From contig OX422191.1 in the NCBI GenBank assembly GCA_949130485.1, positions 8,371,754-8,435,753 of the forward strand: a stretch of 64,000 nucleotides of DNA, read 5' to 3'. This document shows positions 7,633 through 64,000 of this stretch, in pieces; the first letter of the stretch is position 1, and each line of letters starts with the position of its first letter. The stretch comes from Agelas oroides (Eukaryota; Porifera; Demospongiae; Agelasida; Agelasidae). The notes beneath the pieces were generated by a model. It did no database searches and was not told the origin of the DNA. It saw nothing but the letters and a program-made list of their open reading frames with translations. The position numbers were made by a program, and so were the translations under genes.

Positions 7633-7820
7633 CAACATTGTTCTGTTCTGCTCCACCATTGTGAGGTTCAGCTCCACCATTGTGAGGTTCAGCTCCACCA
7701 TTGTGGGGTTCTGCTCCACCATTGTGAGTTTCAGCTCCACCATTGTGGGGTTCAGCTCCACCATTGTGAGGTTCTGCTCCACCATTGTGAGGTTCTGCTC
7801 CGCCATTGTGAAGTTCAACG
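7633..7820. repeat. 21-bp minisatellite (HNGGAEP heptad coding on - strand)
   Basis: About eight to nine copies of a 21-bp unit (TCCACCATTGTGAGGTTCAGC type). On the minus strand it reads as uninterrupted HNGGAEP heptads inside an ORF (7580-7954) that continues with non-repetitive sequence shared with copy B. It lies downstream of the GPCR on the same strand and could be an alternative 3' exon; see findings. Confidence 0.8.
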
Positions 7821-8009
7821 CCGGGAGGATGTTGCATTTCTGTAACAGATTCTGAGGAGAAATTTTTTTGCTCATCACAACAGAATAATTTGTGATCATC
7901 ATTAATTTTGTGATACCCCCCATAATTCCTAGCTAAAGAGAGTACATGTAGCACGAATGAGATTATTGACTATTGTACTCTTCATGTGTAATTTCTACAT
8001 AGGTGACAG

Positions 8010-8073
8010 TAGCCACATACCCAGGCCACTCGTCAAAAAAAACAAACAAACAAGCGGCCTGGGTACGAGGCTA
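8010..8073. mobile_element. TAGYCTCG-type fold-back element, copy A orthologue
   Basis: A 64-bp hairpin with CCAGGCC/GGCCTGG arms lies between two 9-bp direct repeats AGGTGACAG (8001-8009 and 8074-8082). The same insertion, with the same target duplication, is at 21220-21291 in copy B, so it predates the duplication. Confidence 0.8.
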
Positions 8074-8227
8074 AGGTGACAGAAGTGATGGGGACAACAA
8101 AATTTATGTACTAAACGTTCATCCTATGCATTGGGTAACGACAACATCTAGGTCTGAAAAAGATGTGTTTCAGTGGCCAGCACATCCCCTAAAACGTGCA
8201 ACTATGTATGAAATCTACAGTGTAACA

Positions 8228-10678
8228 CTATATATCCTTGTAGAAGGTATAGTACATACCTTGTATCTGTCCTGTTTCCAGTGTTGTAGGGACTTCCCCA
8301 TTTTCCACTGTGGCTGTTGCAATGGTGAGCACAGAGCCATGGGTATTGGAGTTGCACTGGTTGGAGCAATCCCTTGGACGGCTAAAGTGCTTTGAATTTC
8401 GCTCTTTCCAAAAGAAAATGACAAACATTTTTGGTCCAAAAAAGCAGATCAGTATTGCAAAAGCACTTCCTACAAGTGTAGATGCAATGAAACTGTTCTG
8501 AATTTCCTGTCTATTTTGTGTTGCAATGTATACTGGAATGAACGCCACCCAAATCACAAGAAGAGAGAATGCACAGAAACAGATGCACTTGGATTCATTA
8601 AAGTTTACAGGATATTTGAAGCTGAATGTTCCCAAAACTGTAGCAATGATGATAAGTGCACTTTCATACACTACTGATAGGACTAGTGCCACTAGATGGT
8701 CAGATTCGCAGGTGACCACAACTGTTGGGGTATCAAGGGTGTTTGCTTCATTGAGGCACACCTCTCTCCTAACTCCTGGGAGCTGGATTCCTAGGGAAAG
8801 AGCAACGATAAGCATCTGACCAAGTACAAGAAGAAGTGTGAAAATAATCTGGTATCGTGCCTCCATACATCGAAGGCGGCTTAGGGTTGCTTTCTGTAAA
8901 AAGACACGAGCTACTCGAATAATTTTAATGAGAAGAGATCCAAACATTAGTGAAAGGCAGAGCCAGAGTAGTATCCTTTGGCTGATGCAAATTCCCAGCA
9001 GTGGAGGTGATACATAAATGAATGCTGTTATAAGCTGAGGCTGATACCAACCAGTAGCATTATCATCTGCTCCCGGCTTGAGGATTTAACAATTTGCGAA
9101 TTCCAGTACTTTGCAAAGATGAGCAAAATTGTACATGTGATAATCAGTCCAAGGGTTGATACCACCATAACAACAATAGACCATGGATGTGTAAAGGAGA
9201 GAAACACCTCTGGTGAAGCAACACAACTATTACTGCCCCCAAGGGGGTTGTTTCCCCACATCTCACCTGTCGTTGAGCAGTTTCTGCATGCTGTTGCAAC
9301 AGAGTCGTTAGAATACATTTTTCCAAGGCAGGGGTTACACATGCCACAGCAGGATGACTGAACTGGTTCATGATATTCTCCCAATCTGCATCTGCCACAC
9401 TCAGACACAGTAGGCTTGTATACCACATTACCAAAGCTGTCCATTCCAAACTGCGGTCTACTGTTTCTGTTCAGCAAGAGCGATTTTGTGTTATTGTTGT
9501 TGAAAGCAGAACTATTCCAAGTACCAATTTGTTGGAACTCATACTTCTTAATATGGCCAACATCCATTACTTGGTAGTTTAGTATTTCATACATTCCGTC
9601 TGCATTGCCTTGTTTATCAAACTGTACCAGGTTTCCAGTTCGACTCTGAAACTTCAAGTTTGCAATGTAGTTGAGAAAAACTGAGCCATTGAACTCTTCT
9701 CTCTGTCCTCTGCATGTTTGGTTTTGTCTGTACCACTCTAGAGGTTGGTCACAGTTTTCCGTCAGAAAGTCGTGAAGTGCGTGAGCAAATGTGTATACAG
9801 CATCAATCACAAATGGTAGAGCATATCCCTGTTGGTACTGGGGTAAACGTGTAAGATTAGAGTCATTGTCACAATCAACATCTAGAGAGCAGTTTGATAG
9901 ATGTGCATAGAATGTAGAAAACCATGGATTTCGCTTGTTGCTTTGGATTGTCAGTTGAGAATAGTACTCATGGAATTCATCGGACATGTTTATGAGAGGA
10001 ACAGTACCAAACATTCCAGCCGTAGTCTCACTAAATCGTCGAATGACATTGTCTGCTTGAGCCCAGGCACTACTTGCAATCCAAGTGAATCTTTGACGAG
10101 CAGCAGTGTTGGAAATTTCCTGGAGAAGCTTCTCTGCATGCTCTTGAAGGGCATAAAGCACAACCACTGCTGCATGTGATCTGGCTAGTTTCTCAGATAG
10201 GGCTTGATAGTCTGAGTTGACATCAATTCCTTCCTCTAAATCTATGCATATTTCATACTCTTCAGCCAGCCTGCGTAGGTCAGTTACACCAGACTGTCCA
10301 TAGCTGTCTCTGGAATAGACAACGGAAATGAATGTCCAGTTCAAGTGCAAAAAAAGTTCAATCATTGACTGAACCTCAAAGGTATCTGGGGGTATAGTCC
10401 GGTAGAAGTAAGTATAAGTATCTCTGTTACTGAGAAGTGCTGATGTGGAGGCATAGCTCATTTGTGGCATGCTAAACAATCTGCCTAAGCTTGCAACAGG
10501 TACACTGACTTGGCTCAGAGAAGGCCCCACTATCCCAACCGTTTGAGGAAAATCTCCAGTCCCATTTTCACTGGTAATAGAGTTAGACTGGCAGCTCTCA
10601 ATGTTCAACTGTTTACCAGCAACAATCAAGTCTAAAGCCTCGTCAAGACCAATGTTTTCAATGGAACATGTGTCACAA
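8228..10678 (-). pseudogene. Class C GPCR (mGluR-like), copy A, 5'-truncated and frameshifted
   Basis: Very similar to the intact copy at 21502-24297. It covers the Venus-flytrap domain from residue about 118, the Cys-rich NCD3G region, seven membrane segments and the C-terminus. Two lesions are visible. One A of the AAAG run near 9031-9033 is missing relative to copy B, breaking the frame at the start of the membrane domain (8228-8947 continues in another frame). At about 10678 the similarity to copy B stops abruptly, removing the signal peptide and first roughly 117 residues. The poly(A) hexamer AATAAA of copy B (21321-21326) is CATAAA here. Very likely a pseudogene. Confidence 0.88.
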
Positions 10679-11021
10679 CGTATTAAAAGGAGATCAGTTT
10701 GCAGTTGTGTACACCTCTGTCTCCATAGCATTTGCAACATTTATTGGCATCCTCACCTTTCAGTTGGCAAAGGTGACTGGCATTGTTCAATACCTGAAGA
10801 AATGTGCAGCTTTAAAAAAATGTACAATCAGAGATGGTGAAAGAGAAATGGAGTCTGATACTGACTCCCTGCCAGACCGACTAATCAATGTATATGAGTA
10901 TGAACCAGCGCCACAAATAACACAGGAACACACAGCTGCTGAGCACACAGGAAGTGATATGTCACTCAACAAAAAACCAAAAAGACAAATTCCTGTGTAC
11001 ACCTATTTAGCTAACTACTAA
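10679..11021 (+). pseudogene. 3' remnant of a third beta-helix membrane protein gene
   Basis: From about 10690 the + strand encodes the last membrane segment and cytosolic tail of the beta-helix family: VYTSVSIAFATFIGIL, then QLAKVTGIVQYLK, DTDSLPDRLINVYEYEP and the end PVYTYLANY. Copies A and B have YTSVSIALATFTGIL, DTLPDRLVNPGEYEP and PVYTYGSTN at these places. It is clearly more diverged than A and B are from each other, so it is a third paralogue. Everything upstream is missing, replaced by the truncated GPCR of copy A. Confidence 0.85.
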
Positions 11022-14952: not shown

Positions 14953-15185
14953 TGCATGTGTTGCAGTTCTACAGGTTGTTACTCCGTTTTAGTGTCGATA
15001 AGTGATATAGCATTTATTTTGTAACAGCATGTTCGTACCCGAAAAGTTGTATTTCTTGGTCTACATTGACTTTATGATTGATACTGTAGCTTGTAATTGC
15101 AAGTTGTAAAACCAGAATATGGATAACATAAACGTGCTGTGAATCTAGCTGCAATGGATGATTCTCTGCTTTTCTACAGTGCGTA

Positions 15186-18100
15186 ATGGCTCAATCCCCA
15201 GCATTCATTGCTCTTGTGGCAGGACTGATCATTAACACTATCTCCTATTGTTCTGCTGAGGATGTGTACTGTGTCACACCCACTGCCACCTCATGCTCAT
15301 CCTGTCCTCACAATTCAATGAACTGCACCACACTCTCTGAGTATGCACAAGAAGCTAAATTGTATTTTACTTCCAACACCACTATGGTGTTCTTGCCAGG
15401 TGACCATGTTCTTGATGTGAATATCACAGTTGCCAATGTATCCAGACTGGCCATGCATGGAGAGTCTTCCTCAGGCAACAGAGCAACAGTTGTTTGCAAT
15501 GTGCCAGTCGGCCTCAGTTTTACAAGTATGGTGGACTTCAAAATACGTTCTTTAACTTTTACCAATTGCAGCAGGAACTATAGTGTGCCTCTAGTTAGTA
15601 ACTATGCCCTGCTTTTGCAATCCTTGCGATATGCTGAGTTCGTTGACTGTTCCTTCCATGACAACCTTGGCACTGCACTTGTAGTGGATAACACCACTGT
15701 TACTCTAGCAGAGAACATTGTGTTCACACATAACCACTGTGAATCTACCTCTGGATCTAACTCCTGTACAGGAGGAGGTGGTATCACTGCTTTCAGTAGC
15801 AACTTAACATTCACTGGGAACACAATCTTCCATCAAAACAATGCAATATCAGTGTACAGTTACGGTGGTGGAGCAATCTATGCATCACATAATACTATAA
15901 TTAGCTTCAATGGAACCAGCAATTTCATCAACAACTCAGCACATTATGGTGGTGCAATCTACACATCAAGCAATACTGTACTTAGCTTCAATGGAAGTAA
16001 CAACTTTGTCAACAACTCAGCAGATTATAATGGTGGAGCAATCTACACATTTGAGAATGCGAAACTTAGTTTCAATGGAACCAGCAATTTCATCAACAAC
16101 TTGGTACACTTTGCTGGTGGTGCAATCTACACATCAAGCAATGCTGTACTTAGCTTCAATGGAACCACTAACTTCATCAGCAACTCAGCAGATGATAATG
16201 GTGGAGCAATCTACACATTTGAGAATGCGAAACTTAGTTTCAATGGAACCAGCAATTTCATCAACAACTCAGTAAGCTTTGGTGGTGGTGCAATCTATGC
16301 ATCACACAGCACTTTACTCAGCTTCAATGGAAACAACAAGTTCACCAGTAACTTAGCATTCAGTGGTGGTGCAATCTACACATTACGCACAAGTGTGCTT
16401 TGCTTCAATGGAACCAACAATTTTATCAACAACTCAGCACCATTGTATGCTGGAGCTATCTATGCAGATTACAACACTACACTTACACTCAATGGAACAA
16501 TAAACTTTACTAACAATGGATGCAATGGAGGTAAAATCACACTGTATGGAGGTGGAATGTTTATGGGGCTAAGATCCGTGTTCTACACTTTACCTAACAC
16601 AACTGTGCAATGGGAAAATAATTGTGCAAATTTTGGAGGGTCCATCTATGTCCTTGACACTAGCCCCTTAAGTTATTGTGAGTATTCCACATACATACCA
16701 AAAGAAGAATGCTTCTTTCAACTTCCTGACCAGAATCTGTCCAGTGCTGATGTCAGACTTGTTTTTGTGAACAACTCTGCTGATACTGCAGGAAGTGTGT
16801 TATATGGTGGTGCAATAGACCACTGCAAACTCATTGGCCTGGACTCATACAGCTCTGGTGAAGTGTTTGACATGATAGTCCACATTGAAGATGATAATTA
16901 TAACAGCACATCTTCAAACATTTCCTCTGAGCCAATTCACATATGTCCATGTGAAAACCACCTTCCAGACTGCAGTGTGTCTGAGTATAACTTTCCACGC
17001 ACAGTGTATCCTGGTGAAACATTTAACCCTTTAGGGCCTAAAATATCTTGAAAATATTCTGAACGTGCAATGTCTGCTGAGAAACTCGCTGAAAATGTGT
17101 GTAGCGATCTTTTCCATGTCCTGCAGCAATAGTTACAGCTTTCACAAGCCTCGGGGGTATGCCCCGACAGTTATTTGCAATGATTGTTATTGAAGGCAGG
17201 AAGGGGTGGGATTCAAGGGGCGGAGCGTTCGCCAAGGTAGCCGTGCGGTAAGCGTATCGGTTGGATCATTGCAAAAGTTCTCGTTCTTGTGTTGAATGGC
17301 GCTACTTTCTTCACTAATGGAGAGGAGGGGTCCATAGTAACTCACAATGGAAGCGTTATTCCAGGTAAGCATAAAACAAAGGCACGATAAGTTTTTCTAC
17401 TTGTACCGTTCGAGCGCTATTTACGCTAGCAGACCTGTCGTTGCCAAAACAGCTGTTCGCTACGACTCTCAGCACCATAGCCCGCCTTTATTACTACAAT
17501 TTCAGAGAGGGTGAGAATCAACAAACTGCCAGCAATAGTGTCAGTTTTCGTGGGAGTGGCACTGCGAAGTGAGAAGCCACAAAACTGTACAATGTCAGTC
17601 GCGCACCTTTTGGTGCTATCGGCCCTAAAGGGTTAAGGTTTCTGTGGTTGCAGCCGGACAAAGAGATGGAACCGTTCCTAGCACAGTGAGAAGTAGTATA
17701 AAGAAGGGTAGTCTTCATGAGTATGAATACCTCCAATCAGTAAACAACACCTGCACTACACTCAGCTACACTGTTTTTACACGGTCTTCACAAGTGCACA
17801 TAATTTTGTATGCAGAAGCTAGCCCATGCCCAACATTTGTGGACACATATGTTAGTGGCGTGTTACAACTGAGCATTTCAGTGAGCGTAAATCAAACCTG
17901 CCCACCTGGATTTAACATTTCTGGTTCAGCAATTACATCATGTGTCTGTGAAGCAAGACTTGCGCAATATATCGGTACACATCAATGCAATATAACAAAT
18001 GGAGAAGGGGAAATAACACGTGATTCAAGTCAACACTTTTGGGTTGGATATGACTATCAATCTCACGATCTAATACTCCACCCACATTGCCCATTTGACT

Positions 18101-19521
18101 ACTGTGTTAATGCTAAAGTGAACTTTTCTCTCAACAACACAGACGTTCAGTGTGCATACAATAGGTCAGGCCTCTTGTGTGGAGCTTGCAAGCAAGGTTA
18201 TAGTCTAGTACTGGGCACTTCTCAATGCTGGAAGTGTACAAACAGCCATCTGGCCTTGCTCGTCCCTTTTGCAGTGATGGGAGTAACATTGGTCTTCTTG
18301 CTTCTCATCTGCAAACTGACAGTGGCAACAGGAACACTCAGTGGTCTAGTGTTTTATGCCAATATTGTTGGAGCCAATCGTGCAATTTTTCTACCAGTTA
18401 AATCAACTGATTCTTTATCAGTTTTCATTGCATGGCTAAACCTTGACTTTGGAATCGAGACATGTTTCTATAATGGGATGGATGCCTACAGCAAAACATG
18501 GCTGCAGTTTGTGTTTCCAGTATATATTTGGGTGATAGTAGGACTCATGATTCTTGGTAGCCGCTACTCACACAAATTTGCAAAGTTGCTTGGTCATAAC
18601 CCAGTTTCTGTCCTGGCGACACTCATTCTCCTCTCATATACAAAGATCCTTCGCACATTGATCAATGTGCTTTACATCACCTACCTTGAGTATCCAACAT
18701 ATAACAGAAATGTATGGCTGTATGATGCAAACATTGACTATCTTGAGGGCAAACACATCCCACTTGTCCTAGTGGCAGTGTTCGTCTTCCTCTTCCTCTT
18801 TCTTCCTTACACTCTCTTGCTTCTCCTTGGTCAGTGGCTGCAGGCCATATCACACCTGAGGCTCTTCTCATGGGTCAACAGGCTGAAACCTTTTATGGAC
18901 TCATACCATGCTCCCTACAAAGCAAAACATCGCTACTGGTCTGGACTGCTGCTTGTGTTTCGCTTTGTTCTTTTTCTAGTGTTTGCTATTGAATTCAATC
19001 CTCGACAGGACTCAAGCATTAATCTGGTAGCAATTCTAGTGGTAGCTGGAATTCTTCAAATGTGGGCCTGGCTCAGTGGTGGGGTTTACAGGAAATGGTG
19101 TCTAGATGCCCTAGAAGGTTCATTTGCTCTGAACTTGATCATCTTAGCTACTGCCACCATGTATATCTACCATCTCAATTACTCGCAAGAAGTCCAACTT
19201 GCAGTTGGGTATACTTCTGTCTCCATAGCACTTGCAACATTCACTGGGATCCTCACTGTTCAGCTGGCAAATGTAACTGGCATTGCTCGATACCTTAAAA
19301 GAAAGTGTGTGGCAATCAGACATGTACGTCACGTTCAAGCAGAAATGCAGCCTTCAGATATTGATACACTGCCAGATCGGCTGGTAAACCCAGGGGAGTA
19401 TGAACCACTTCTAGACACTCCAGAAGGGCATATGACTGTTGAGCCTACAGAAGAAAAAGAAATGGTGAATGAGGCACAGGGAAGGCTAACTCCTGTGTAT
19501 ACTTATGGCTCCACTAACTAG
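15186..19521 (+). pseudogene. Beta-helix (GGAIY/FNGT repeat) multi-pass membrane protein, copy B, interrupted by a MITE
   Basis: Paralogue of 2815-6277 with the two bases lost there still present. Signal peptide about 1-24, Cys-rich N-terminus, then eight GGAIY...FNGT repeats (five in copy A), several N-glycosylation sites, a Cys-rich EGF-like stretch, and about nine hydrophobic segments from residue about 818 (for example PFAVMGVTLVFLLLICKL). The tail ends TYGSTN. Hallmarks before the sixth membrane segment are FMDSYHAPYKAKHRYW, as in TRP-like/GPCR-like modules of beta-helix proteins in sponges and protists (recalled, not searched). A 606-bp MITE sits at 17027-17632. Without it and one TTAA the ORF is exactly 1242 codons including stop. 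With it, translation stops at 17051. In-frame splicing around it is conceivable (see findings), so loss of function is not certain. Confidence 0.8.
17023..17636. mobile_element. piggyBac-type MITE, 606 bp, TTAA target duplication, inside coding sequence
   Basis: The element is 17027-17632. Its ends CCCTTTAGGGCC and GGCCCTAAAGGG are perfect 12-bp inverted repeats, and TTAA flanks both sides (17023-17026, 17633-17636). Copy A has the uninterrupted site ACATTTAAGGTTTC. TTAA duplication and CCC-starting ends are the hallmark of piggyBac-family elements. There is no transposase ORF, so it is non-autonomous. Insertion postdates the duplication. Confidence 0.93.
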
Positions 19522-20836
19522 TTTTGTAACTTTCTGTGCTCAATCATGTTATTAAATGACACCTTCTGCTACACAAAATGCTGCATGTACAGTGTGCAAT
19601 AGGTATACATCAGTTCAGCTTACATAGCTAGAATCTTTGCATTCCTTGAATGTGTACATTTATTTGCATTTTTGCTGTATACAACACATCGTTATAAGTT
19701 TGACCCCACTTCTTGCAATGTTATTTCATCAGAGTTCAGAGTACTGATGTTAGTTAGCTGATGTATACTGGCAAATCATAATGCAACTGAAGCAGCTCTT
19801 GCATATATTACAACAAGCTACCAGGCATGTAAAAGATTTTAGCTCCAGAATGGCTTGTGTTTGTCTATATTTATAGCTTGTGAGTCAGGCATCAGGTAAT
19901 TTTGTGAACTGTGAAGAAGTTAACACACCACCTTGATATACCTAATGGTCACATGCAAAATGTATGGCATTGAAATTAGTGTACTAAGTGCACATATACA
20001 TGTATATCTGCATACAACATCGTACCAACATGTAGTACTGTGTTGCTATCCACATGTCTACTAATCAGGTAAATATCAAAGATAGCCATAGCTAAACCTT
20101 ATGCTAGCAGGTGTTGTTTTTTTTAGCTAATTTCATGATGAAAAGAGTCACCCAAATTATGTCAGGATAGGATCAAGGTAACTTTCATTCCGTATCAGCA
20201 TACCAACACACAGTTGATACCAGTGATGCTGTAATCTGTAGTTGTATCAATTGCAATTAATTACAAATTTAAGGTAATTTTAATCACAATTTTACTTGGT
20301 CAGTTGGAATGCCACGAAGTTGGTAATCATAATGTGCTTTTGAAGTCTAGTGGGTGGTTTCAAAATGCTTCCCCAAAGTTGTTCAGAACTTCCTTTATCC
20401 ACACCTTGAAAGGGTGATCGACCAAACAGGAAAGATGTTCACACTGGCCATGGTTACCAAAACTTACAACCTTGTTTATCGACAATATAATGCTCTAAGC
20501 ATTAACTTAACTATCAATATATATCAGAAATTTGAAATAAGTGATTGTAATTGTAAGGATTACAGTATTTTGAACACCTGCAATATTAGTAAGTGTAATT
20601 GAGGACAAATTTTTGTATTTGTACTTGGCGATTGTACATTTAAATGTAATCATTACATCACTGGTGGACACTGATGTGGTGGCTACATAACAAAAAATGG
20701 CTTAATTGACACATACTTATGTGTATGTAACTACACATTAATTAATGCAACACTTTAAAGTACGCAGGTAGCAATAAACTTAGTATAGTTATTGTCACTT
20801 GATTGCATGCATTCCTCTGAATTCTTGACTTGTATT
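19522..20836. other. 3' flank of copy B beta-helix gene, no gene seen
   Basis: Collinear with 6278-7632. ATTAAA about 25 nt after the stop could be a poly(A) signal. ORFs are short and not conserved in frame. Confidence 0.55.
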
Positions 20837-21022
20837 CCAACATTGTGAGGTTCAGCTCCACCATTGTGAGGTTCAGCTCCACCATTGTTCTCTTCAGCTC
20901 CACCATTGTTCTCTTCAGCTCCACCATTGTGAGGTTCAGCTCCACCATTGTGAGGTTCTGCTCCACCATTGTGAGGTTCTGCTCCACCATTGTGAGGTTC
21001 TGCTCCACCATTGTGAGGTTCA
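20837..21022. repeat. 21-bp minisatellite (HNGGAEP heptads on - strand), copy B
   Basis: Orthologue of 7633-7820, eight to nine units, with two units changed to ENNGGAE. The minus-strand frame is open from 21108 to 20755 and its flanks (SSESVTEMQHPP before, MQSSDNN after) are shared with copy A. Confidence 0.8.
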
Positions 21023-21219
21023 ACGCTAGGAGGATGTTGCATTTCTGTAACAGATTCCGAGGAGAAATATTTTTTGCTAATCATAACAGAATAATTTGTG
21101 ATCATCATTAATTTTGTGATACCCCCCAGAATTCCTAGCTAAAGAGAGTACATGTAGCACGAATGAGATTATTGACTATTGTACTCTTTATGTATGTGTA
21201 ATTTCTACATAGGTGACAG

Positions 21220-21291
21220 TAGCCTCGTACCCAGGCCACTTGTCAAAAAAAAACACGTTTTTTTTGGACGAGTGGCCTGGGTACGAGGCTA
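21220..21291. mobile_element. TAGYCTCG-type fold-back element, 72 bp
   Basis: TAGCCTCGTACCCAGGCCAC and its inverted copy surround an A/T-rich loop. Direct repeats AGGTGACAG flank it at 21211-21219 and 21292-21300. Same insertion as 8010-8073. Confidence 0.88.
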
Positions 21292-21320
21292 AGGTGACAG
21301 AAGTGATGAGGACAACAAAA

Positions 21321-21326
21321 TTTATT
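21321..21326 (-). promoter_or_regulatory. Poly(A) signal of GPCR copy B
   Basis: AATAAA on the minus strand, about 175 nt downstream of the GPCR stop. The matching hexamer in copy A is CATAAA. Confidence 0.5.
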
Positions 21327-21501
21327 GTACTAAACATACATCCCATAGTGTAGCTGGTGAAGCCTGTAATTGTCCAACATTCATCCTATGCATTGGGTAA
21401 CGACAACATCTAGGTCTGCCTTTAATACAGAAAAAGATATGTTTCAGTGGCCAGCACATCCCCTAAAACGTGCAACTATGTATGAAATCTACAGTGTAAC
21501 A

Positions 21502-24297
21502 CTATATATCCTTGTAGAAGGTATAGTAAATACCTTGTATCTGTCCTGTTTCCAGTGTTGTAGGGCAGTTCCCATTTTCTGCTGTGGCCGTTGCAATGGT
21601 GAGCATAGAGCCATGGGTATTGGAGTTGCACTGGTTGGAGCAATCCCTTGGACGGCTAAAGTGCTTTGAATTTCGCTCTTTCCAAAAGAAAATGACAAAG
21701 ATTTTGGGTCCAAAAAAGCAGATCAGTATTGAAAAAGCACTTCCTACAAGTGTAGATGCAATGAAACTATTCTGAATTTCCTGCCTATTTTGTGTCGCAA
21801 TGTATACTGGAATGAACGCCACCCAAATCACCAGAAGAGAGAATGCACAGAAACAGATGCACTTGGATTCATTAAAGTTTACAGGATATTTGAAGCTGAA
21901 TGTTCCCAAAACTGTAGCAATGATGAGAAGTGCACTTTCATACACTACTGATAGGACTAGCGCCACTAGATGGTCAGATTCGCAGGTGACCACAACTGTT
22001 GGGGTATCAAGGGTGTTTGCTTCATTGAGGCGCACCTCTCTCCTAACTCCTGGGAGCAGGATTCCTAGGGAAAGAGCAACGATAAGCATCTGACCAAGTA
22101 CAAGAAGAAGTGTGAAAATAATCTGGTATCGTGCCTCCATACATCGAAGGCGGCTTAGGGTTGCTTTCTGTAAAAAGACACGAGCTACTCGAATAATTTT
22201 AATGAGAAGAGATCCAAACATTAGTGAAAGGCAGAGCCAGAGTAGTATCCTTTGGCTGATGCAAATTCCCAGCAGCGGAGGTGATACATAAATGAATGCT
22301 GTTATAAAGCTGAGGCTGATACCAACCAGTAGCATTATCATCTGCTCCCGGCTTGAGGATTTAACAATTTGCGAATTCCAGTACTTTGCAAAGATGAGCA
22401 AAACTGTACATGTGATAATCAGTCCAAGGGTTGATACCACCATAACAACAATAGACCATGGATGTGTAAAGGAGAGAAACACCTCTGGTGAAGCCACACA
22501 ACTGTTACTGCCACCAAGGGGGTTGTTTCCCCACATCTCGCCTGTTGTTGAGCAGTTTCTGCATGCTGTTGCAACAGAGTCGTTAGAATACATTTGTCCA
22601 AGGCAGGGGCTACACGTGCCACAGCAGGATGACTGAACTGGTTCATGATACTCTCCCAACCTGCATCTGCCACACTCAGATACAGTAGGCTTGTATACCA
22701 CATTACCAAAGTTGTCCATTCCAAACTGCGGTCTACTGTTTCTGTTCAGCAAGAGCGAATTTGTGTTATTGTTATTGAAAGCAGAACTATTCCAAGTCCC
22801 AATTTGTTGGAACTCGTACTTCTTAATATGGCCAACATCCATTACTTGGTAGTTTAGTATTTCATACATTCCGTCTGCATTGCCTTGTTTATCAAACTGT
22901 ACCAGGTTTCCAGTTCGACTCTGAAACTTCAAGTTTGCAATGTAGTTGAGAAAAATTGAGCCATTGAACTCTTCTCTCTGTCCTCTGCATGTTTGGTTTT
23001 GTCTGTACCACTCTAGAGGTTGGTCACAATTTTCCATCAGAAAGTTGTGAAGTGCATGAGCAAATGTGTATACAGCATCAATCACAAATGGTACAGCGTA
23101 TCCCTGTTGGTACTGGGGTAAACGTGTAAGATTAGACTCAATGTCACAATCAACATCTAGAGAGCAGTTTGTCAGATATGCATAGAATGTAGAAAACCAT
23201 GGATTTCGCATGTTGCTTTGGATTGTCAGTTGAGAATAGTACTCATGGAATTCATCGGACATGTTTATGAGAGGAACAGTACCAAACATTCCTGCCGTAG
23301 TCTCACTAAATCGTCGAATGACATTGTCTGCTTGAGCCCAGGCACTACTTGCAATCCAAGTGAATCTTTGACGAGCAGCCGTGTTGGAAATTTCCTGGAG
23401 AAGCTTCTCTGCATGCTCTTGAAGGGCATAAAGCACAACCACTGCTGCATGTGATCTGGCTAGTTTCTCAGATAGGGCTTGATAGTCTGAGTTGACATCA
23501 ATTCCTTCCTCTAAATCTATGCATATTTCATACTCTTCAGCCAGCCTGCGTAGGTCAGTTACACCAGACTGTCCATAGCTGTCTCTGGAATAGACAACGG
23601 AAATGAATGTCCAGTTCAAGTGCAAGAAAAGCTCAATCATTGACTGAACCTCAAAGGTATCTGGGGGTATAGTCCGGTAGAAGTAAGTATAAGTATCTCT
23701 GTTACTGAGAAGTGCTGATGTGGAGGCATAGCTCACTTGTGGCATGCTAAACAATCTGCCTAAGCTTGCAACAGGGACACTGACTTGGCTCAGAGAAGGT
23801 CCCACTATCCCAACTGTTTGAGGAAAATCTCCAGTCCCATTTTCACTGGTAATAGAGTTGGGCTGGCAGCTCTCAATGTTCAACTGTTTACCAGCAACAA
23901 TCAAGTCTAAAGCCTCGTCAAGACCAATGTTTTCAACGGAACATGTGTCACGGATGTCAAACCCAAGTGTGATGTTTGGGAGAAGAGTTGGGTGGTCATT
24001 GATGCAATCAAGAGCAAAGAGCATTGCCTCCATTCGTTCCAGGCCACCTTGCAACCGAAAATCTCCACATCCTCCTCCACTAGGGTTCACAGTGTGAATA
24101 GGAAACAGCCCTCCCAACACAAAGTCTTTTTCTGTCCGATTCCTGATACCACTTATTCTCAGTCCATCCACAGCTGTGAGAATTTCTGACTCTATTTCAT
24201 ACTGGTAGAGAGTGGCATTTACAGTCAAAATGCACAGTAGAAGCAGCTGCAACTTACAAAATACAAACTGCATTTTTCTCATCTCTGGTTGAGGCAT
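21502..24297 (-). CDS. Class C GPCR, metabotropic-glutamate-receptor-like, 931 aa, intact
   Basis: Intronless ORF. Signal peptide about residues 7-28 (the start could be Met1, Met7 or Met9). Venus-flytrap ligand domain about 55-500 with the mGluR signatures GPSLSQVSVPVA, PQVSYASTSALLS, IPPDTFEVQSM and DSYGQSG. Cys-rich NCD3G region about 535-600 (CGRCRLGEY...CCGTC). Seven membrane segments about 612-870: NSQIVKSSSREQ before TM2, NFNESKCICF and WVAFIPVYIA at TM6, FFGPKIFVIFF at TM7. The cytosolic tail is short (about 60 residues). Expected to be a plasma-membrane dimeric receptor for an amino-acid-like ligand, coupling to G proteins. At the place of the family's SDGW (ligand amino-group Asp) this protein has ASSAW, so the ligand may not be glutamate. 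Convergent with the beta-helix gene upstream on the + strand. Confidence 0.92.
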   Translation of the reverse strand: MPQPEMRKMQFVFCKLQLLLLCILTVNATLYQYEIESEILTAVDGLRISGIRNRTEKDFVLGGLFPIHTVNPSGGGCGDFRLQGGLERMEAMLFALDCINDHPTLLPNITLGFDIRDTCSVENIGLDEALDLIVAGKQLNIESCQPNSITSENGTGDFPQTVGIVGPSLSQVSVPVASLGRLFSMPQVSYASTSALLSNRDTYTYFYRTIPPDTFEVQSMIELFLHLNWTFISVVYSRDSYGQSGVTDLRRLAEEYEICIDLEEGIDVNSDYQALSEKLARSHAAVVVLYALQEHAEKLLQEISNTAARQRFTWIASSAWAQADNVIRRFSETTAGMFGTVPLINMSDEFHEYYSQLTIQSNMRNPWFSTFYAYLTNCSLDVDCDIESNLTRLPQYQQGYAVPFVIDAVYTFAHALHNFLMENCDQPLEWYRQNQTCRGQREEFNGSIFLNYIANLKFQSRTGNLVQFDKQGNADGMYEILNYQVMDVGHIKKYEFQQIGTWNSSAFNNNNTNSLLLNRNSRPQFGMDNFGNVVYKPTVSECGRCRLGEYHEPVQSSCCGTCSPCLGQMYSNDSVATACRNCSTTGEMWGNNPLGGSNSCVASPEVFLSFTHPWSIVVMVVSTLGLIITCTVLLIFAKYWNSQIVKSSSREQMIMLLVGISLSFITAFIYVSPPLLGICISQRILLWLCLSLMFGSLLIKIIRVARVFLQKATLSRLRCMEARYQIIFTLLLVLGQMLIVALSLGILLPGVRREVRLNEANTLDTPTVVVTCESDHLVALVLSVVYESALLIIATVLGTFSFKYPVNFNESKCICFCAFSLLVIWVAFIPVYIATQNRQEIQNSFIASTLVGSAFSILICFFGPKIFVIFFWKERNSKHFSRPRDCSNQCNSNTHGSMLTIATATAENGNCPTTLETGQIQGIYYTFYKDI

Positions 24298-25645
24298 TAT
24301 CTATATAGGTTATACGTGCTCTTCAGTGTAAATCATCTGTTAAAATGTGTTGTTGTTTTTTATGAAGGGAAATCACGAACGAGCCAATGTTATGTAAACT
24401 CTTGTGAGTACTACATTATAGTAAGATTTGCGACAGCAGAGTAAAAAGGGCATGCAACACCAAAAGTGAACCAGCTGAACCTTTGATCTTAAGGAGTTGG
24501 TAGACCCACCAAGATATACTTTCCACCTTTTCCTCATTAGAGCTTCCCCTACTGCTTACTTTGGTTGTTGCTAGTGTTGCTAAAATGACTGTATATGTAG
24601 CTATGTGGCTGTTAGGTATTTGGCCAAGTCATTTCCAGTCATGAAAGTGAAACGTTAATTATGGAGTTGTTTTGCACATCAAGGAATCTTACTGCAACAC
24701 AACAATGACCTTATAAGGTAATGTCTTATTGTAATTTCTCAACAGCAAGGTGATGACTTTTCCAAGTGCCAACAAAGCAGTATACACATTACAGCCTCAT
24801 TCCATATAAAGCTGGAAGGTCTTACCAAGAGTCTGCATGGGAATGAGACTATATGCATGTTATATGATACAAGATCGATGCACACATGTCTTTATGAGCC
24901 TGTGTAGGTTAATTATATATATCACTGTAAAAACAATTGGGTTACTTTAATTTTCTCAGTTGCATGCTAGTAGCATCTGACCTGGTTCTCCACACAAAAT
25001 TTTAGGGTAGCAGGGCACTGGCAGCTACATGTAGATCTAAATCTCTAGTAAGGCTTAACAGGATCTTGGAGGTAGGGGAGATTGCGACTAAGTCTGTGTG
25101 GTTCAGCTATCAAGACACTGTACACGCCAAGTTGCTGGGTATGGACTCCTAGGCAGCTGAATTATGGTGCTCCTCTCATCTTTTTTGAACAAACTGTATT
25201 TTTATACCAGACTTCATCTGCCTGCCTTCCATGCATGCTGTTTGAACTGAATGTCCGGGATTATGCGTTACACTTGCCCATGCAGGCAATAGATTTATCC
25301 ACCCTTACTTCTGGTATTGTGTAATTTTTATAGGACGTCTTGTAAGCCATGGATAATATAGACTAGTAGACTACGCGGACTATATTATCCATGTGTAAGC
25401 TTGGGACTTCTGTTACAAACGGCGTGCCATATTGCCGCCTGCTTGCGCGGCACCCTTTTCATACATATCCCCCCTCCCCCACTTCCTGGAACGTCACACG
25501 GTCTAGACTAGACTATATATACGACCTTTGTAAAGGGCAGAGTACAAGCACTTCCGTTTCCGGGGGTGCCGAGTGACACCTGTTACGTTATTTAGTTGCT
25601 TGAACGAGCAGTGAACGAGTGACTGAGCAAGTGCAACAATTCAAG
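24298..25645. other. Intergenic region between GPCR copy B and the modular receptor gene
   Basis: Both flanking genes are read away from here, so it should hold both promoters. A TATA-like stretch (CTATATATACGACC) lies about 130 nt before the ATG at 25646. A partial CACTGTAAAAACAATTGGGTTACTTTAA repeat end lies near 24925. A hairpin is at 25349-25393. No gene seen. Confidence 0.5.
25349..25393. repeat. Short hairpin
   Basis: CATGGATAATATAG and CTATATTATCCATG are perfect inverted 14-mers around an 18-nt loop (ACTAGTAGACTACGCGGA type). Confidence 0.7.
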
Positions 25646-56833: not shown

Positions 56834-58874
56834 GCGGGTGAAGAAGATTTCCGTTCTTTCCCGTAGAAGTTTGCATGGTTTGAGACTGATACTGTGCTGT
56901 GCAGCTGTTGGGCAGCCATCTAGTACGATCAAAATTGACCCCTCCCCCATTTCAACTCGATTGACGTTTGTGACAGGTGAAACGTCCTTCTTTAGACTTT
57001 ACAGCAGTGTAAGCTGAGGTTAGTGAAGTGGTCTATTTCATTAGCAAATTTAGTGGGAGGTGACCCACTGAATGTGGAACTACTGAGTCTAGTACAGTAA
57101 CTACGTAGGTAGTAGTTAGTGCAGTTTACCTTTTCAGAAATTCAACCTCACAAGTCTGGTATATTCTTTAAATGCAAATTATGCTGGCATGGAAAATGCA
57201 GCAGGTCCAACTTCACAGTGCCTTTCCAGGCAGTGCTACCTGCATAGGAGGAAGGCATGGGGGGCACTTTAATGCTAACATTGTAGCACACCCACATAGT
57301 CAAGTGCTAGCATTTGATACTTGCTATATACATTGTGATGAAGATGGATTGATTTGCAAGGCAAGAGCAGAAGGCACATTACTTATTAGCTATACATGCT
57401 ACTCTTGTACCCTTGCTCTTTAAGCAAAATTTTTATATACAAAAAAAAAAAAAAAAGGCCCAAACATTCATACAGTACATGGATATTAATTGTTGTGCTT
57501 GCATAGCCCTCACACCCAGGCCTTGTACTAGCTTGGTGGGGGTGGGGGGGTAGGGGGTGGGGTAGGTCGGCCATGGAGTGTGTAGTATAACAAATATAGC
57601 AGTGATATACTGATGTTATCGTTTAAATGTCTTTATTAGCTGTTTTATAGCATGCTTATAACTAGGGTTTAAGCCTATTTTTTATAACTGCCTTTTTTCA
57701 CAGTGCTAGAAGTACAGACACCAAAGCGGAACATACCTTTAGTTTCGTAGTCCCCAGAGGACTTGACTTAATTTACTGACCATGCTTAACTACAACTGGC
57801 CTGCTCAGTTACTGTTTGCTAGTCTCGCAAGCCATACCGGCCTAGCGCGGATCGCTTCCAGTATGCGTACTACTGAAAGCCACACTGGGGTTTATTGGGT
57901 TGACTGCCAAGTACTGAGTAGGCAGTGACTTTCATAACCCGTAATAATGCACACTATCAGATGACCAGTCAGCTATGCATACATGTACATGTGCATGCGC
58001 TACAAATAGCCCCCAGCCAATGGAGATGGTTTCCAGTTCCAGTAGCTCAGCAAGCGATGATGATTATGATGAAACTCTTCTCAAGAAGCTCTGCGTGCTT
58101 CTCTGTATGCCTCAGAATGCACCAGAATATATCCCAAATTTCCTAGGGGAGCATCCCCCCAGACCCCCCTAGAGTTACAGGGTGGACATGTTCTCTACTT
58201 CAGCTAATAAGTTTGCCCCTCCCTCCCCAAGATAAAAAGAGTTAGGTACAGCCCTGCACTCTAAGCTGTCACCTATAAGGTATTTAATTTTGGGCTTAAA
58301 AACAAAAGAATACCCCAGAATGAGCTAGCTGAGACAGTAGCCTTGGTATCAAACCATAACAGCTGCAAAAATGATAAAATCCAAGTTCATTTGACCTAAA
58401 TTGATTGCCATAGTCAGGTCTTGGCCTAACTTCCACCTTAAGTTTGGTATGGTAGGAAATTTTCACAAGCATAAATTTTTGTGAATCCACCACAAACATG
58501 CTAACAAAAAAGGTTATTTTCCTCCCATTATTTTCAACAAACTGTGCTATTTCATTTGCTGAAGTTTTGTTCTCCTTTGGTGGTCCAAACCAAACTGAGT
58601 GCAATATTCATGTTTGTGAATATTCATTCAGCATTCATTTGTTTGTGCCACACAAGAAGTACATAGAACTGAGGCTATATTCATACCCTAAAAGATGAAC
58701 TGCTATTCTGGGCTTCTTGGAACCTTGGATAGACAAATGCTGTATTAAATTTTACATCTAAAGTCAAACTACTGGTTTAGTATAGTACATTATCGTGTTT
58801 GCAACAATTTTTACTTGAGTCAGTGCGTGATAATAGCCACTTTCCAAGTTTTGATGTCATCTTTGTTTCCACAG

Positions 58875-61800
58875 CAGCACACCAGACCAGAGAATGAGTG
58901 ACAGAGTGCCACGAAGACAGGTATATTGTTGTGTTGTGAGGGAATACAGATTGGATAAGATCAGTGCTGCAAAACAAGGGATTAATGATATGAATACACT
59001 AAGAACACTGATTACCTACTCTAGATCTTCATTAGTATGATGAATGTTGATCAGTATAATAACGAAGTTGCATAATAATGTTGTTTCACTTGTTTATCTT
59101 CTTTCCCCACATGCTACTTGGTGAACTTGTGTATTCACTCCAACTCAGCCGGTAAGTTCACTATTAGAATCATATACTTCCATATTGTCTGAAAATTCGA
59201 TCCACAAGCTAGATTTGTAAAGTTTAGTGACCAACTCTCCCTTCACCCATTCCCACAAACTCTGACACATGCATCCATTAAGACAGGTACCTTTCCCTAT
59301 TTATTCCTGTCCTCCCCTTTCCAATCTCCCTTTCACTCTCCCCTCCGCTACTCGATCTGCCCTCTCCTCTCTCCTAACCTCATTATGGCCCCACTGTCAC
59401 AAGAGATTACAATACCACCCATTGATAAGCAAACAAGCTTGATACGTCATATTACTTTGAGCATGGTAACACACAACTAGTATGTAGTAACCATTTGAAG
59501 GTGCAAACTTGAACGTGGCAGTTTTAGCTGGTGATGTCACAATGTAGACCTTCCTGTGTATAATTTCTGTGAGGAGGTTACATAATAATGTTGTTTCACT
59601 TGTTTATCTTATTTCCCAACATGCTACACGGTGAACTTGACGTGTGTTCACTCCAACTCAGCCGGTAAGTTGACTATTAGAATGATAACATGTACATATT
59701 GTCTTACAATGCCATACATATTATAATACATGCTAAGATATTGTCACACACAACATCCGTTTTGGCAAATACTTCCCCTCTCCTTTCTCCTCTCCTTCCC
59801 CTCCCTCCTCCCTCTTCCCCAACTGTTGGTTTACTTTGGGCGCAGTAACACACAACTGGTGTGTGTGACAAACAGTGGCATGTGCAAAAAAAAGCATGCA
59901 GGCTTTTGCTTGCATTGTTTTTTTTTTTGTTTTTTTTTTGTTTTTTTTTTGTTTTTTTTTCTATAATAATTCTGCCACCAGGCAAGGATATACACAATAG
60001 CATTAATGCTAATACGAGGTGCACATCCGTACTAACTAAATAAATGGTTCTATTTCAGAGTCTGTGACCTAGTTCGAGAAGAAACAGGACTGGGAATCAC
60101 AGGAGTCCATTTTACATTCCGACTACTAAGCCCAAACCTCATCTTGAGCCCTGGCATGCCATCTCGTATTTGGTACTCAAGTTGCTTAGCCTTTCGTACA
60201 CAGGACTCAAGCTCTTCTTCACTAGATTCAGCGTTGGTAGACCTGGTTGGAGTCATCTTCCGTATCTGCATTGTTGTATTGTAGACCTTCATATGATAAG
60301 CGTATGATGATGATGCGATTTTATTGTGGAGGGAGAAGGAAGAGTGTGTAACTGCCAAAAATTCAAAACCGGTGTATTAAATTGACAGATACCTTTCCCT
60401 ATTCATTCCTGTCCTCCCCTTTCCCATCTTCCTTTCACTCTCACCTCCGCTAACTCCCCATTTTCCCCTTCCCCCAAACTCTGACAGCGCATTCATATAG
60501 ACAGGTACCTTTCCTTATTCCTTCCCTTTCCCATCTCCCTTTCACTCTCCCCTCCGCTACTCTGCCCTCTTCTTTCTCACAACCCCTTTCTGAGATTTTA
60601 TGGCCCCACTGTCACAAGAGATTACAATACCACCCATTGATAAGCAAACAAGCTTGATACGTCATATTACTTTGAGCATGGTAACACACAAGTAGTATGT
60701 AGTAACCATTTGAAGGTGCAAACTTGAACATGGCAGCCTTTAGCTGGTGATGTCACAATGTAGACCTTCCTGTGTATAATTTCTGTGATGAGGTTACATA
60801 ATAATGTTGTTTCACTTGTTTATCTTCTTTCCCCACATGCTACACGATAAACTTGTGTGTTCACTCCAACTCAGCCGGTAAGTTGACTATTAGAATGATA
60901 CATGTGCACATTGTCCGAAATTCGACACACAAGCTAGATATGCAAAGTTTATTGATCAACTCCCCATTCTACCCTTCCCCCAAACTCTGACACATGCATC
61001 TATAAAGACAGGTACCTTTCCCCGGTTCATTCCTGTCCTCCCCTTTCCAATCTCCCTTTCACTCTCCCCTCCGCTACTCCGCCCTCTTCTTTCTCACAAC
61101 CCCTTTCTGAGATTTTATGGCCCCACTGTCACAAGAGATTACAATACCACCCATATAAGCAAAGAAGCTTGATACGTCATATTACTCTGAGCATGGTAAC
61201 ACACAAGTAGTATGTACCAACCATTTGCATGTGCAAACTTGAACATGGCAGTTTTAGCTGGTGATGTCACAATGTAGACCTTCCTGTGTATAATTTCTGT
61301 GATGAGGTTACATAATAATGTTGTTTCACTTGTTTATCTTTTTTCCCGACATGCCACATGGTGAACTTGTGTGTTCACTCCAACTCAGTGGGTAAGTTGA
61401 CTATTAGAATGATACATGAGCACATTGTCCGAAATTCGACACACAAGCTAGATATGCAAAGTTTATTGATCAACTCCCCCTTAACCCCTTTCCCCGCAAA
61501 CTCTGACACATGCATCTATAAACACAGGTACCTTTCCCCGGTTCATTCCTGTCCTCCCCTTTCCAATCTCCCTTTCACTCTCCCCTCCGCTACTCCGCCC
61601 TCTTCTTTCTCCCAAGCCTTTTCTGAGATTTTATGGCCCCACTGTCATAGAGATTAGAATACCATCCATATAAGCAAACAAGCTTGATACGTCATATTAC
61701 GTGAGCATGGTAACACACAACTAGTATGTACTAACCGTTTGCATGTGCAAACTTGAACATGGCAGTTTCAGCTGGTGATGTCACAATGTAGACCTTCCTG

Positions 61801-64000
61801 TGTATAATTTCTGTGATGAGGTAACATAATAATGTTGTTTCACTTGTTTATCTTCTTTCCCGACATGCTACACGGTGAACTTGTGTGTTCACTCCTACTC
61901 AGATGGTAAGTTGACTATTAGAATGATACATGTGCACATTGTCCGAAATTCGACACACAAGCTAGATATGCAAAGTTTATTGATCAACTCCCCCTTCACC
62001 CCTTTCCCCGCAAACTCTGACACATGCATCTATAAAGACAGGTACCTTTCCCCGGTTCATTCCTGTCCTCCCCTTTCCAATCTCCCTTTCACTCTCCCCT
62101 CCACTACTCTCCTAACTCCTTTCTGAGATTTTATGGCCCCACTGTCACAAGAGATTACAATACCACCCATTAATAGGCAAACAAGCTTGATACGTCATAT
62201 TACTCTGAGCATGGTAACACACAAGTAGTATGTAGTAACCATTTGAAGGTGCAAACTTGAACATGGCAGCCTTTAGCTGGTGATGTCACAATGTAGACCT
62301 TCCTGTGTATAATTTCTGTGATGAGGTTACATAATAATGTTGTTTCACTTGTTTATCTTCTTTCCCCACATGCTACACGGTGAACTTGTGTGTTCACTCC
62401 TACTCAGCGGGTAAGTTGACTATTAGAATGATACATGTGCACATTGTCCGAAATTCGACACACAAGCTAGATATGCAAAGTTTATTGATCAACTCCCCCT
62501 TCACCCCTTTCCCCGCAAACTCTGACACATGCATCTATAAAGACAGGTACCTTTCCCCGGTTCATTCCTGTCCTCCCCATTCCAATCTCCCTTTCACTCT
62601 CCCCTCCACTACTCTCTCCTAACTCCTTTCTGAGATTTTATGGCCCCACTGTCACAAGAGATTACAATACCACCCATTAATAGGCAAACAAGTTTGATAC
62701 GTCATATTACTCTGAGCATGGTAACACACAAGTAGTATGTAGTAACCAACTGCATGTGCAAACTTGAACATGGCAGCCTTTAGCTGGTGATGTCACAATG
62801 TAGACCTTCCTGTGTATAATTTCTGTGATGACGTTACATAATAATGTTGTTTCACTTGTTTATCTTCTTTCCCCACATGCTACACGGTGAACTTGTGTGT
62901 TCACTCCTACTCAGGAGGTAAGTTGACTATTAGAATGATACATGTGCACATGTCTGAAATTCAATACACAATTAAGATAGATATGTAAAGTTTAGCTAAC
63001 TCCCCATTCTCCCCTTCCCCCAAACTCTGACAGCCGCATTGATATAGACAGGTACCTTTCCTTATTTGTTCCTGTCCTTCCCTTTCCAATCTCCCTTTCA
63101 CTCTCCCCTGCGCTACTCTGCCCTCTTCTTTCTCACAACCCCTTTCTGAGATTTTATGGCCCCACTGTCACAAGAGATTACAATACCACCCATTGATAAG
63201 CAAACAAGCTTGATACGTCATATTACTTTGAGCATGGTAACACACAAGTAGTATGTAGTAACCATTTGAAGGTGCAAACTTGAACATGGCAGCCTTTAGC
63301 TTGTGATGTCACAATGTAGACCTTCCTGTGTATAATTTCTGTGATGAGGTTACATAATAATGTTGTTTCACTTGTTTATCTTATTTCCCCCACATGCTAC
63401 ACGGTGAACTTGTGTGTTCACTCCTACTCAGTTTGTAAGTTGACTATTAGAATGATACATGTGCACATTGTCCGAAATTCGACACACAAGCTAGATATGC
63501 AAAGTTTATTGATCAACTCCCCATTCTACCCTTCCCCCAAACTCTGACACATGCATCTATAAAGACAGGTACCTTTCCCCGGTTCATTCCTGTCCTCCCC
63601 TTTCCAATCTCCCTTTCACTCTCCCCTCCGCTACTCCGCCCTCTTCTTTCTCACAACCCCTTTCTGAGATTTTATGGCCCCACTGTCACAAGAGATTACA
63701 ATACCACCCATATAAGCAAAGAAGCTTGATACGTCATATTACTCTGAGCATGGTAACACACAAGTAGTATGTACCAACCATTTGCATGTGCAAACTTGAA
63801 CATGGCAGTTTTAGCTGGTGATGTCACAATGTAGACCTTCCTGTGTATAATTTCTGTGATGAGGTTACATAATAATGTTGTTTCACTTGTTTATCTTTTT
63901 TCCCGACATGCCACATGGTGAACTTGTGTGTTCACTCCAACTCAGTGGGTAAGTTGACTATTAGAATGATACATGAGCACATTGTCCGAAATTCGACACA
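58875..64000 (+). CDS. Putative gene with an array of 3-nt micro-exons, partial at 3' end
   Basis: The first exon 58875-58920 follows TTTCCACAG and ends CAG|GTATAT. It holds ATG at 58894 and nine codons (MSDRVPRRQ), phase 0. Then come nine sites where a pyrimidine-rich 3' splice site (CACTCC(A/T)ACTCAG) and a consensus 5' splice site (GTAAGTTGAC) are exactly 3 nt apart: 59149-59151 CCG, 59662-59664 CCG, 60875-60877 CCG, 61389-61391 TGG, 61903-61905 ATG, 62408-62410 CGG, 62915-62917 GAG, 63432-63434 TTT, 63946-63948 TGG. Each would add one codon in phase. The flanking introns are tandem copies of about 510 bp. Precedent: micro-exon genes of schistosomes and 3-nt neural micro-exons of vertebrates. 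Expression and protein are unknown; the gene continues beyond the window. The exon call is inference from splice signals and the variation pattern. Confidence 0.45.
59070..64000 (+). repeat. Tandem array of about 505-517-bp units, higher-order organised
   Basis: Starts of GTAAGT in successive units: 59152, 59665, 60878, 61392, 61906, 62411, 62918, 63435, 63949. Spacings are 513, 1213 (one unit with an insertion of about 700 bp), 514, 514, 505, 507, 517 and 514. Shared blocks include GACAGGTACCTTTCC, AAGCTTGATACGTCATATTA, CTGGTGATGTCACAATGTAG and TAATAATGTTGTTTCACTTG. The first partial unit starts near 59070 inside the intron that follows the exon at 58875, and the array runs past the window end. 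The units from 60878 and from 63435 appear essentially identical through the following junction, giving a 2557-bp five-unit period. Confidence 0.93.
60050..60256 (-). CDS. Small ORF inserted in one repeat unit, unknown function
   Basis: A 68-codon minus-strand ORF from MTPTRSTNAESSEEELESC to VSSRTRSQTLK, with a charged helical-looking middle (CVRKAKQLEYQIRDGMPG). It lies in the unit with an extra 700 bp (about 59700-60385). Downstream on the minus strand is an A-rich stretch with C interruptions (59918-59960 on the +), which could be a retroposition tail. A possible acceptor (CAACAATGCAG) precedes ATACGGAAGATG, so it may be a last exon copied here. The + strand frame is also open but stops at once in the phase the micro-exons would require. 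Not a family I recognise. Confidence 0.3.
   Translation of the reverse strand: MTPTRSTNAESSEEELESCVRKAKQLEYQIRDGMPGLKMRFGLSSRNVKWTPVIPSPVSSRTRSQTLK

Follow-up and report, generated by a model that had tools for sequence, protein, structure and literature searches.

Introduction

How can an exon of three nucleotides (nt) be recognized, and how can gene conversion and selection build the hypervariable segments of receptors? Both questions are raised by an array of tandem units in the genome of the sponge Agelas oroides (assembly GCA_949130485.1, 259.3 Mb in 141 contigs). The array begins within a stretch of 64,000 nt, positions 8371754-8435753 of contig OX422191.1, that was analysed here and is called the window; the contig is abbreviated as C9. 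Each unit carries a putative 3' splice site and a putative 5' splice site that enclose a single triplet. The triplets are probably one-codon exons, joined cumulatively into an N-terminal segment between the start exon and the Roc domain of ROCO genes.

If the units are spliced as read, these genes would devote one intron to each residue of a protein segment, which reaches 66 residues in the longest of the stretches read. Such genes would test how small an exon can be, as well as splicing without exon definition, and they would represent exon shuffling with a single amino acid as the unit, below the level of any protein fold. The setting would be a candidate immune GTPase family in an early animal lineage.

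Three-nucleotide units in ten arrays

The pattern YTCAGNNNGTAAGT is matched nine times in the window, where 0.09 matches are expected and none of 100 shuffles reaches nine. An earlier note on this DNA had listed nine AG-NNN-GTAAGT units with their triplets, and all nine were found at the places given. The note had also described the units from window positions 61906 and 62411 as almost identical, with ATG and CGG as the preceding triplets, and the introns that follow these two triplets do share 495 of 502 aligned bases. The nine units are the first of 41 in the C9 array, the last of which lies at C9:8451967.

Across the genome, the exact pattern spanning both splice sites has 200 matches, compared to none for the reversed control, and a shorter version of the unit pattern has 337; the matches to these two patterns are located as far as inside contig C1. 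For the pattern classes with completely listed matches, every match lies on C1, C9 or C17. Ten array stretches were read: that of C9, eight on C1 (C1a to C1h) and one on C17. Those of C1e and C1h are partial arrays, with a further unit at C1:5651106 for C1e and units that continue to C1:5936664 for C1h. Units were called with up to 4 mismatches in a 15-nt 3' anchor, in which AG was required, and up to 5 mismatches in a 19-nt 5' anchor, with the exon length left free between 0 and 60 nt. The ten stretches, which also served as the length control, hold 336 units, and in every one of the 336 the 3' and 5' splice sites are exactly 3 nt apart. Twelve 3' anchors and four 5' anchors are unpaired, three of the 3' ones within the C1h array. 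Some spacings correspond to two or three periods, suggesting that a few units are uncounted or have been replaced by other sequence. Two of the regions on C1, C1:5715001-5755000 and C1:6198001-6228000, are segmental duplicates with flanks about 97% alike over kilobases; their arrays, of 46 and 29 units, have strongly different codons.

The splice signals are nearly invariant. The AG of the 3' splice site is fixed by the search definition; the GT of the 5' splice site is found in 335 of the 336 units, and GTAAG in 334. A pyrimidine-rich tract extends from about -55 to -32 before the 3' splice site, and the nearest upstream AG is a median of 71 nt away, with a smallest distance of 12 nt. Given that a gap of 71 nt free of AG has a probability of 0.06 at the AG rate of the intron, this spacing provides weak support. 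The unit with the broken donor GGAAGT is a GAT unit at C1:1118513, near the 3' end of the C1a array.

Variation is concentrated on the triplet

Whether the triplet is any more variable than other sites of the unit was asked of 133 aligned sites, among which the three triplet sites rank 2, 1 and 3 for variability. Their mean pairwise diversity within arrays is 0.69, 0.70 and 0.47, compared with a mean of 0.126 and a maximum of 0.34 for the other 130 sites. Since the units were found by their anchors, conservation is overstated at the nearest 34 sites; at the 96 sites outside this bias, diversity is still below that of the triplet.

The codon can differ where the surroundings do not. Among pairs of units with identical 280-nt flanks, the codon differs in 14 of 69. 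Units 25 and 32 of the C9 array (numbering from 0) carry GGA and CGG, with identical sequence for 510 nt to the left and 1574 nt to the right, and a GCG/CTG pair in C17 has common flanks of 2288 and 393 nt. Recent duplicates were examined by 20 comparisons of blocks of 2 to 9 units, which overlap in part, and 21 of 234 codon bases differ compared to 75 of 33,250 intron bases, or about 40 times as many differences per base. The claim of the earlier note that variation is focused on a triplet of fixed length between fixed splice signals is borne out by this excess and by the constant gap. Chance or simple repeat drift is ruled out by the shuffles, the constant 3-nt length and the ranking of sites by variability.

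An excess of this kind might be generated by a dedicated mutator, that is, by editing or by somatic or germline hypermutation that rewrites the triplet, and the C9 GGA/CGG pair with its long identical flanks and the 40-fold difference within duplicated blocks are both compatible with one. The manner of the change is more like an exchange of whole codons. Nine of ten changed codons in the block comparisons differ by 2 or 3 nt. Comparison of each unit with its nearest relative reveals a different codon in 138 of 336 cases, with one base changed in 37, two in 62 and three in 39; these shares (27, 45 and 28%) are close to the 22, 47 and 31% predicted for codons drawn anew within the array. Possible donors were sought for 15 picked pairs, 13 of them with different codons, and both codons are present elsewhere in the same array for 11 of the 13; the stretch shared around the triplet measures from 13 nt to more than 2 kb. 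For the other two, one direction of change is without a donor within the stretches read (GAT in C1f and ATG in C9), as a mutator would allow. Given that the codon swaps resemble redraws and that donors exist in the array, a dedicated triplet mutator is unnecessary, and we consider it highly improbable; selection plus short-tract conversion would be enough to explain the swaps. Single codons appear to behave as cassettes, with duplication and short-tract gene conversion as the means of their shuffling.

Probable coding character of the triplets

The 336 triplets comprise 33 codons and no stops, where base frequencies predict 14.2. When each codon is counted once per array, which leaves 99 pairs of codon and array, 5.4 stops are expected and none is found (permutation P = 0.0008, with second and third bases shuffled). 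Genome-wide, the pattern CTCAG-TRR-GTAAGTTGAC is matched 16 times with TGG and never with TAA, TAG or TGA.

Of the 336 triplets, 234 end in G, matching the preference of the 5' splice site, and this preference alone would make synonyms rare. No synonymous difference occurs among the 531 codon-changed pairs whose flanks diverge by at most 3%, and 22 occur among all 5864 differing pairs within arrays. The departures from G follow the genetic code: the third base is other than G in 70 of 166 triplets from split codon boxes and in 32 of 170 from fourfold boxes (P = 3e-6), and T or C accounts for 65 of the former and 22 of the latter (P = 5e-8), out of the 166 and 170 triplets. Restricted to distinct pairs, the counts are 23 of 54 and 8 of 45 for bases other than G (P = 0.009), and 18 of 54 and 6 of 45 for T or C (P = 0.03). 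The pattern suggests that the splice preference tends to yield where the amino acid would change.

The gene downstream of the arrays

The open frame 3' of the arrays carries Roc and COR-A domains and spans 725 codons in C9. The C9 Roc-COR exon, at C9:8456908-8459043, is on the + strand, as is the array, and starts about 21 kb beyond the end of the window. Its Pfam scores of 42.7 bits for Roc (cut-off 27) and 44 bits for COR-A (cut-off 35.3) assign it to the ROCO family. Five frames farther downstream were tested, and a Death domain above the Pfam cut-off was found in three (two in C9, one in C1b), which presumably are part of the same transcript as Roc; in the other two, from C1c and C9, no family scores above its cut-off.

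The protein search of the genome scores the best candidates only, such that copy counts are lower bounds. Roc matches number at least 60, and at least 17 of these are close copies with 63 to 100% identity; the remainder are one 54% fragment beside a stop-bearing copy and at least 42 matches at 22 to 29%. A close Roc copy lies 3' of the array on the same strand in all ten stretches, inside the fetched DNA for seven and by coordinates for C1g, C1h and C17. The strand relation was also tested with the 84 units of the codon classes with first base A or T, which are completely listed: for each of the 84, the first Roc copy met in the 3' direction shares the strand of the unit, at a distance of 2.9 to 97 kb. 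The Roc copies at C9:8739273 and C1:5377564 have no such units, and two GAA units lie near the latter.

This linkage bears on the possibility that the near-identical introns, both ends of which are common across arrays, are introner-type mobile elements that have cut coding sequence into codons. Near-identical introns dispersed in many genes, the hallmark of introners, are absent from the completely listed A- and T-codon classes, all 84 units of which precede a same-strand Roc copy. The duplicated blocks, each comprising 2 to 9 units, are as expected from tandem duplication, and insertion at exactly every third base would be left unexplained. An introner origin is accordingly the reading to which we give the least credence.

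A constant exon of 25 nt is found between array and Roc, as GAACTGCAAGAGAAGAAGATGAAAG in C1b and C1e and as near copies in C1a, C1c, C1d, C1f and C17, as well as 3' of C1g and C1h, that is, for nine of the ten arrays. It encodes ELQEKKMK in phase 0 and then leads in phase 1 into the Roc exon (D-YQEALKLG). Each of the ten genome matches to the constant exon precedes one of the 17 Roc copies by 1.7 to 4.0 kb and shares its strand. One close Roc copy, at C1:8628657-8630690, has three stops, yet has a constant exon 2.4 kb upstream. In C1c, C1d and C1e (C1:5721127, C1:6202805 and C1:5643893, - strand), the sequence that separates the constant exon from Roc contains a conserved frame, KFLNEATIDSVLLAAIEQFEDQTTNRLLIAALEEYEDSGT, which has no Pfam match.

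Start exons were recognized for four of the ten arrays (C9, C1a, C1b and C17; Table 1). They have 27 to 30 coding bases, and all end in phase 0, as the earlier note had stated for the exon that precedes the array in the window. An ATG-TCG where the C17 array begins was considered as a start codon and dropped, given that the start exon lies upstream. Where both start and constant exons are known, the compatible phases would keep a transcript in frame however many of the codons it includes, from none to all. Array and Roc exon have the same strand, compatible phases and common exons, as they would if they belonged to one transcript.

Features of the window

Table 1. Coordinates of the start exon and predicted single-codon exons in the window, with the start exons of three further arrays
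Feature	Window position	Strand	Remarks
Start exon	58875..58920	+	Coding 58894-58920, MSDRVPRRQ; ends in phase 0, then GTATAT; homologous to start exons of C1a, C1b and C17
Single-codon exon 1, CCG (Pro)	59149..59151	+	Predicted from splice-site pattern
Single-codon exon 2, CCG (Pro)	59662..59664	+	Predicted from splice-site pattern
Single-codon exon 3, CCG (Pro)	60875..60877	+	Predicted from splice-site pattern
Single-codon exon 4, TGG (Trp)	61389..61391	+	Predicted from splice-site pattern
Single-codon exon 5, ATG (Met)	61903..61905	+	Predicted from splice-site pattern
Single-codon exon 6, CGG (Arg)	62408..62410	+	Predicted from splice-site pattern
Single-codon exon 7, GAG (Glu)	62915..62917	+	Predicted from splice-site pattern
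Single-codon exon 8, TTT (Phe)	63432..63434	+	Predicted from splice-site pattern
Single-codon exon 9, TGG (Trp)	63946..63948	+	Predicted from splice-site pattern
Window part of micro-exon array	59149..64000	+	Array continues to C9:8451969; Roc-COR exon downstream, same strand, outside window
Start exon C1a			MSDRKPSHNQ, phase 0
Start exon C1b			MSRIELPEE, phase 0
Start exon C17			MSDRESSEK, phase 0

Units 2 and 3 are spaced by 1213 nt rather than the usual 510 or so, with an insert at window 59850-60340 that includes poly-T; a reverse-strand frame in this insert (…MTPTRSTNAESSEEELESCVRKAKQLEYQIRDGMPGLKMRFGLSSRNVKWTPVIPSPVSSRTRSQTLK) has no Pfam match. Window 58000-64000 has no match in Rfam, a 551-nt unit has no phage match, and the unit pattern is absent from the viral and prokaryote sequence collections searched.

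Elsewhere in the window, a gene pair is present in two copies 12 to 13 kb apart, at 2767-10740 and 15162-24300. We take the pair to be an outer-membrane-like repeat protein (+ strand) and a class C receptor-like protein (- strand). A 21-nt tandem repeat (GTTCAGCTCCACCATTGTGAG) of 8 to 9 copies is found at both 7645-7817 and 20836-21022.

Proposed cumulative exons and how they might be spliced

Several observations weigh against the proposal that the triplets are cumulative exons. We know of no precedent for the splicing of dozens of consecutive 3-nt exons, and both the array junctions and the link of array and Roc exon in one transcript are predictions from the DNA. The 5' splice site is altered in some units, to GGAAGT and to GTTAGT in one unit each and to GTAAGC in eight. 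The stop test yields P = 0.038 when the third base alone is permuted, and the units are kin by duplication, so that the tests of coding character overstate independence. No codon has changed in 12 of the 20 block comparisons (all of those in C1c, C1f and C1g, two of three in C1a and one in C17), and the triplet excess therefore stems from C9, C17 and one C1a block. For seven of the 84 A- and T-codon units, the distance to the next Roc copy is 51 to 97 kb, the copy being either C1:5504714 or the broken one at C1:8628657. The constant exon was not recognized in the C9 gene on search, and no start exon was recognized in six arrays, of which C1c and C1d were scanned for up to 8 kb and the others had little upstream sequence. 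Helical or beta periodicity of the predicted peptides does not exceed that of shuffles in the eight arrays of at least 20 units, C1e and C1h being excluded as too short. A coiled coil is not claimed, given that periodicity is not significant, although the C1a peptide reads as charged and helix-like. Finally, none of the 105 candidates scored, with E up to 10, is a database protein with the cumulative C17 N-terminus, a negative limited by the finding that at least 120 matches in that database look like uninterrupted genomic frames.

One alternative is a non-coding intronic tandem repeat, in which the splice-like sites serve as decoys or as steps of recursive splicing and the triplet is untranslated. 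The units are tandem and alike, and the frame is also open with the entire array skipped. Such a repeat would leave unexplained the lack of stops in 336 triplets, the third-base pattern that follows the genetic code, the exact 3-nt length of every unit, the contrast between a most variable triplet and almost fixed neighbours, and the ties of the arrays to one gene family in one orientation. It is regarded as very unlikely, and cumulative one-codon exons are the reading that is developed here.

If all codons are joined, the cumulative peptides would be PPPWMREFWAEGPGGWAWETGRALGGAFGALWRAFGLRAQV for C9 and MSFDEFERLELKRLDDPFALDDPFAELPALDDPFLELPELLDK for C17. The triplets would be spliced in order and all in phase 0, with one residue added by each. 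The splice complexes of both sites can hardly fit on a 3-nt exon at the same time, so the introns are probably removed stepwise. In a manner like that of recursive splicing, each joined triplet may rebuild the 5' splice site (NNN/GTAAGT) for the next step. Given that each codon is in its own homologous unit of 0.3-0.5 kb, single residues could be added, removed or swapped with the frame and the splice signals untouched, and tandem duplication and short-tract gene conversion would be the agents of such single-residue change. The array segment is likely to be a fast-evolving recognition or oligomerization part of an intracellular immune-type receptor, a role suggested by the type of family (ROCO, with Death domains in two copies tested) and by the parallel with the ROCO genes of brown algae discussed below.

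The exons could also be real but included as a subset per transcript, by stochastic or regulated skipping, to give many peptides per gene in the manner of schistosome micro-exon genes (MEGs) or of Dscam. Very short exons are easily skipped, and any subset stays in frame given that all 336 units are of 3 nt. The brown algal ROCO genes, with their shuffled exons for leucine-rich repeats (LRRs), are alternatively spliced, according to the part of the source available (PMC11378527). A strict choice of one exon among many is disfavoured by codon redundancy, with 66 units for 10 amino acids in C1a and 41 units for 12 in C9; where the same codons are repeated many times per array, a choice of one residue fits badly. 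Free inclusion of subsets is compatible with all of these results, and we think it less likely than cumulative joining. The earlier note offered three meanings, of which the best fit is a cumulative micro-exon protein; this redundancy disfavours a cassette array that chooses one residue, and targeted diversification of the triplet is unneeded in light of the redraw pattern.

A more speculative and rather doubtful proposal is that stepwise splicing includes varying subsets of one-codon exons per transcript or cell, while germline conversion reshuffles the codons. The result would be a combinatorial repertoire at the level of single amino acids, without lymphocytes.

Comparison with known systems

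A search of the literature in open-licence full texts, with and without sponge terms, found no array of single-codon, three-nucleotide or tandem micro-exons. In the sections of the sources available to us, isolated 3-nt micro-exons are described for Drosophila homothorax, troponin T and mouse NCAM (PMC7392893; PMC8042270), two 3-nt exons for the fungal lipS gene (PMC5639578) and two tandem micro-exons for plant genes (PMC7714060). The 3-nt cases show that an exon of this size between CAG and GTAAGT, the arrangement read in the sponge units, can be spliced. They number one or two per gene, and the same sections describe neither shuffling nor an array of 3-nt exons, whereas the sponge arrays hold dozens.

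In recursive splicing, an acceptor stands directly before a donor, which each step regenerates for the following one, as is proposed for the sponge units. Exon bases are not usually retained at recursive sites, whereas the sponge units would keep three coding bases. Dscam-type arrays generate receptor diversity from tandem homologous exons, as the sponge arrays may, but the Dscam exons are long, mutually exclusive and encode parts of immunoglobulin domains.

The schistosome MEGs are the nearest gene type, and the sponge genes may be classified as extreme micro-exon genes. The exons of schistosome MEGs are longer than 3 nt and are not known to be tandem copies of a single 3-nt exon. As the sponge exons would be, the tiny symmetric exons of schistosome MEGs are able to vary a protein by a few residues; they make up most of the coding region of parasite secretion or gland proteins, as described in the available part of PMC4350168. 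The candidate exons of the sponge, as read from its DNA, are 3 nt in 336 of 336 cases but are confined to an N-terminal segment.

The brown algal ROCO genes provide the closest parallel in protein family. As described in the part of PMC11378527 available, which cites Zambounis et al. 2012, each LRR is encoded by one exon of 72 bp in phase 2, and these exons are shuffled and alternatively spliced. The sponge and algal genes would have in common a ROCO GTPase, N-terminal tandem exons of equal size that are shuffled, and a candidate role as immune receptor. They differ in that the sponge exons would be of 3 nt, in phase 0, and encode one residue instead of a repeat. Given that the shuffled unit would be a single residue, the architecture of the sponge genes would be categorically new.

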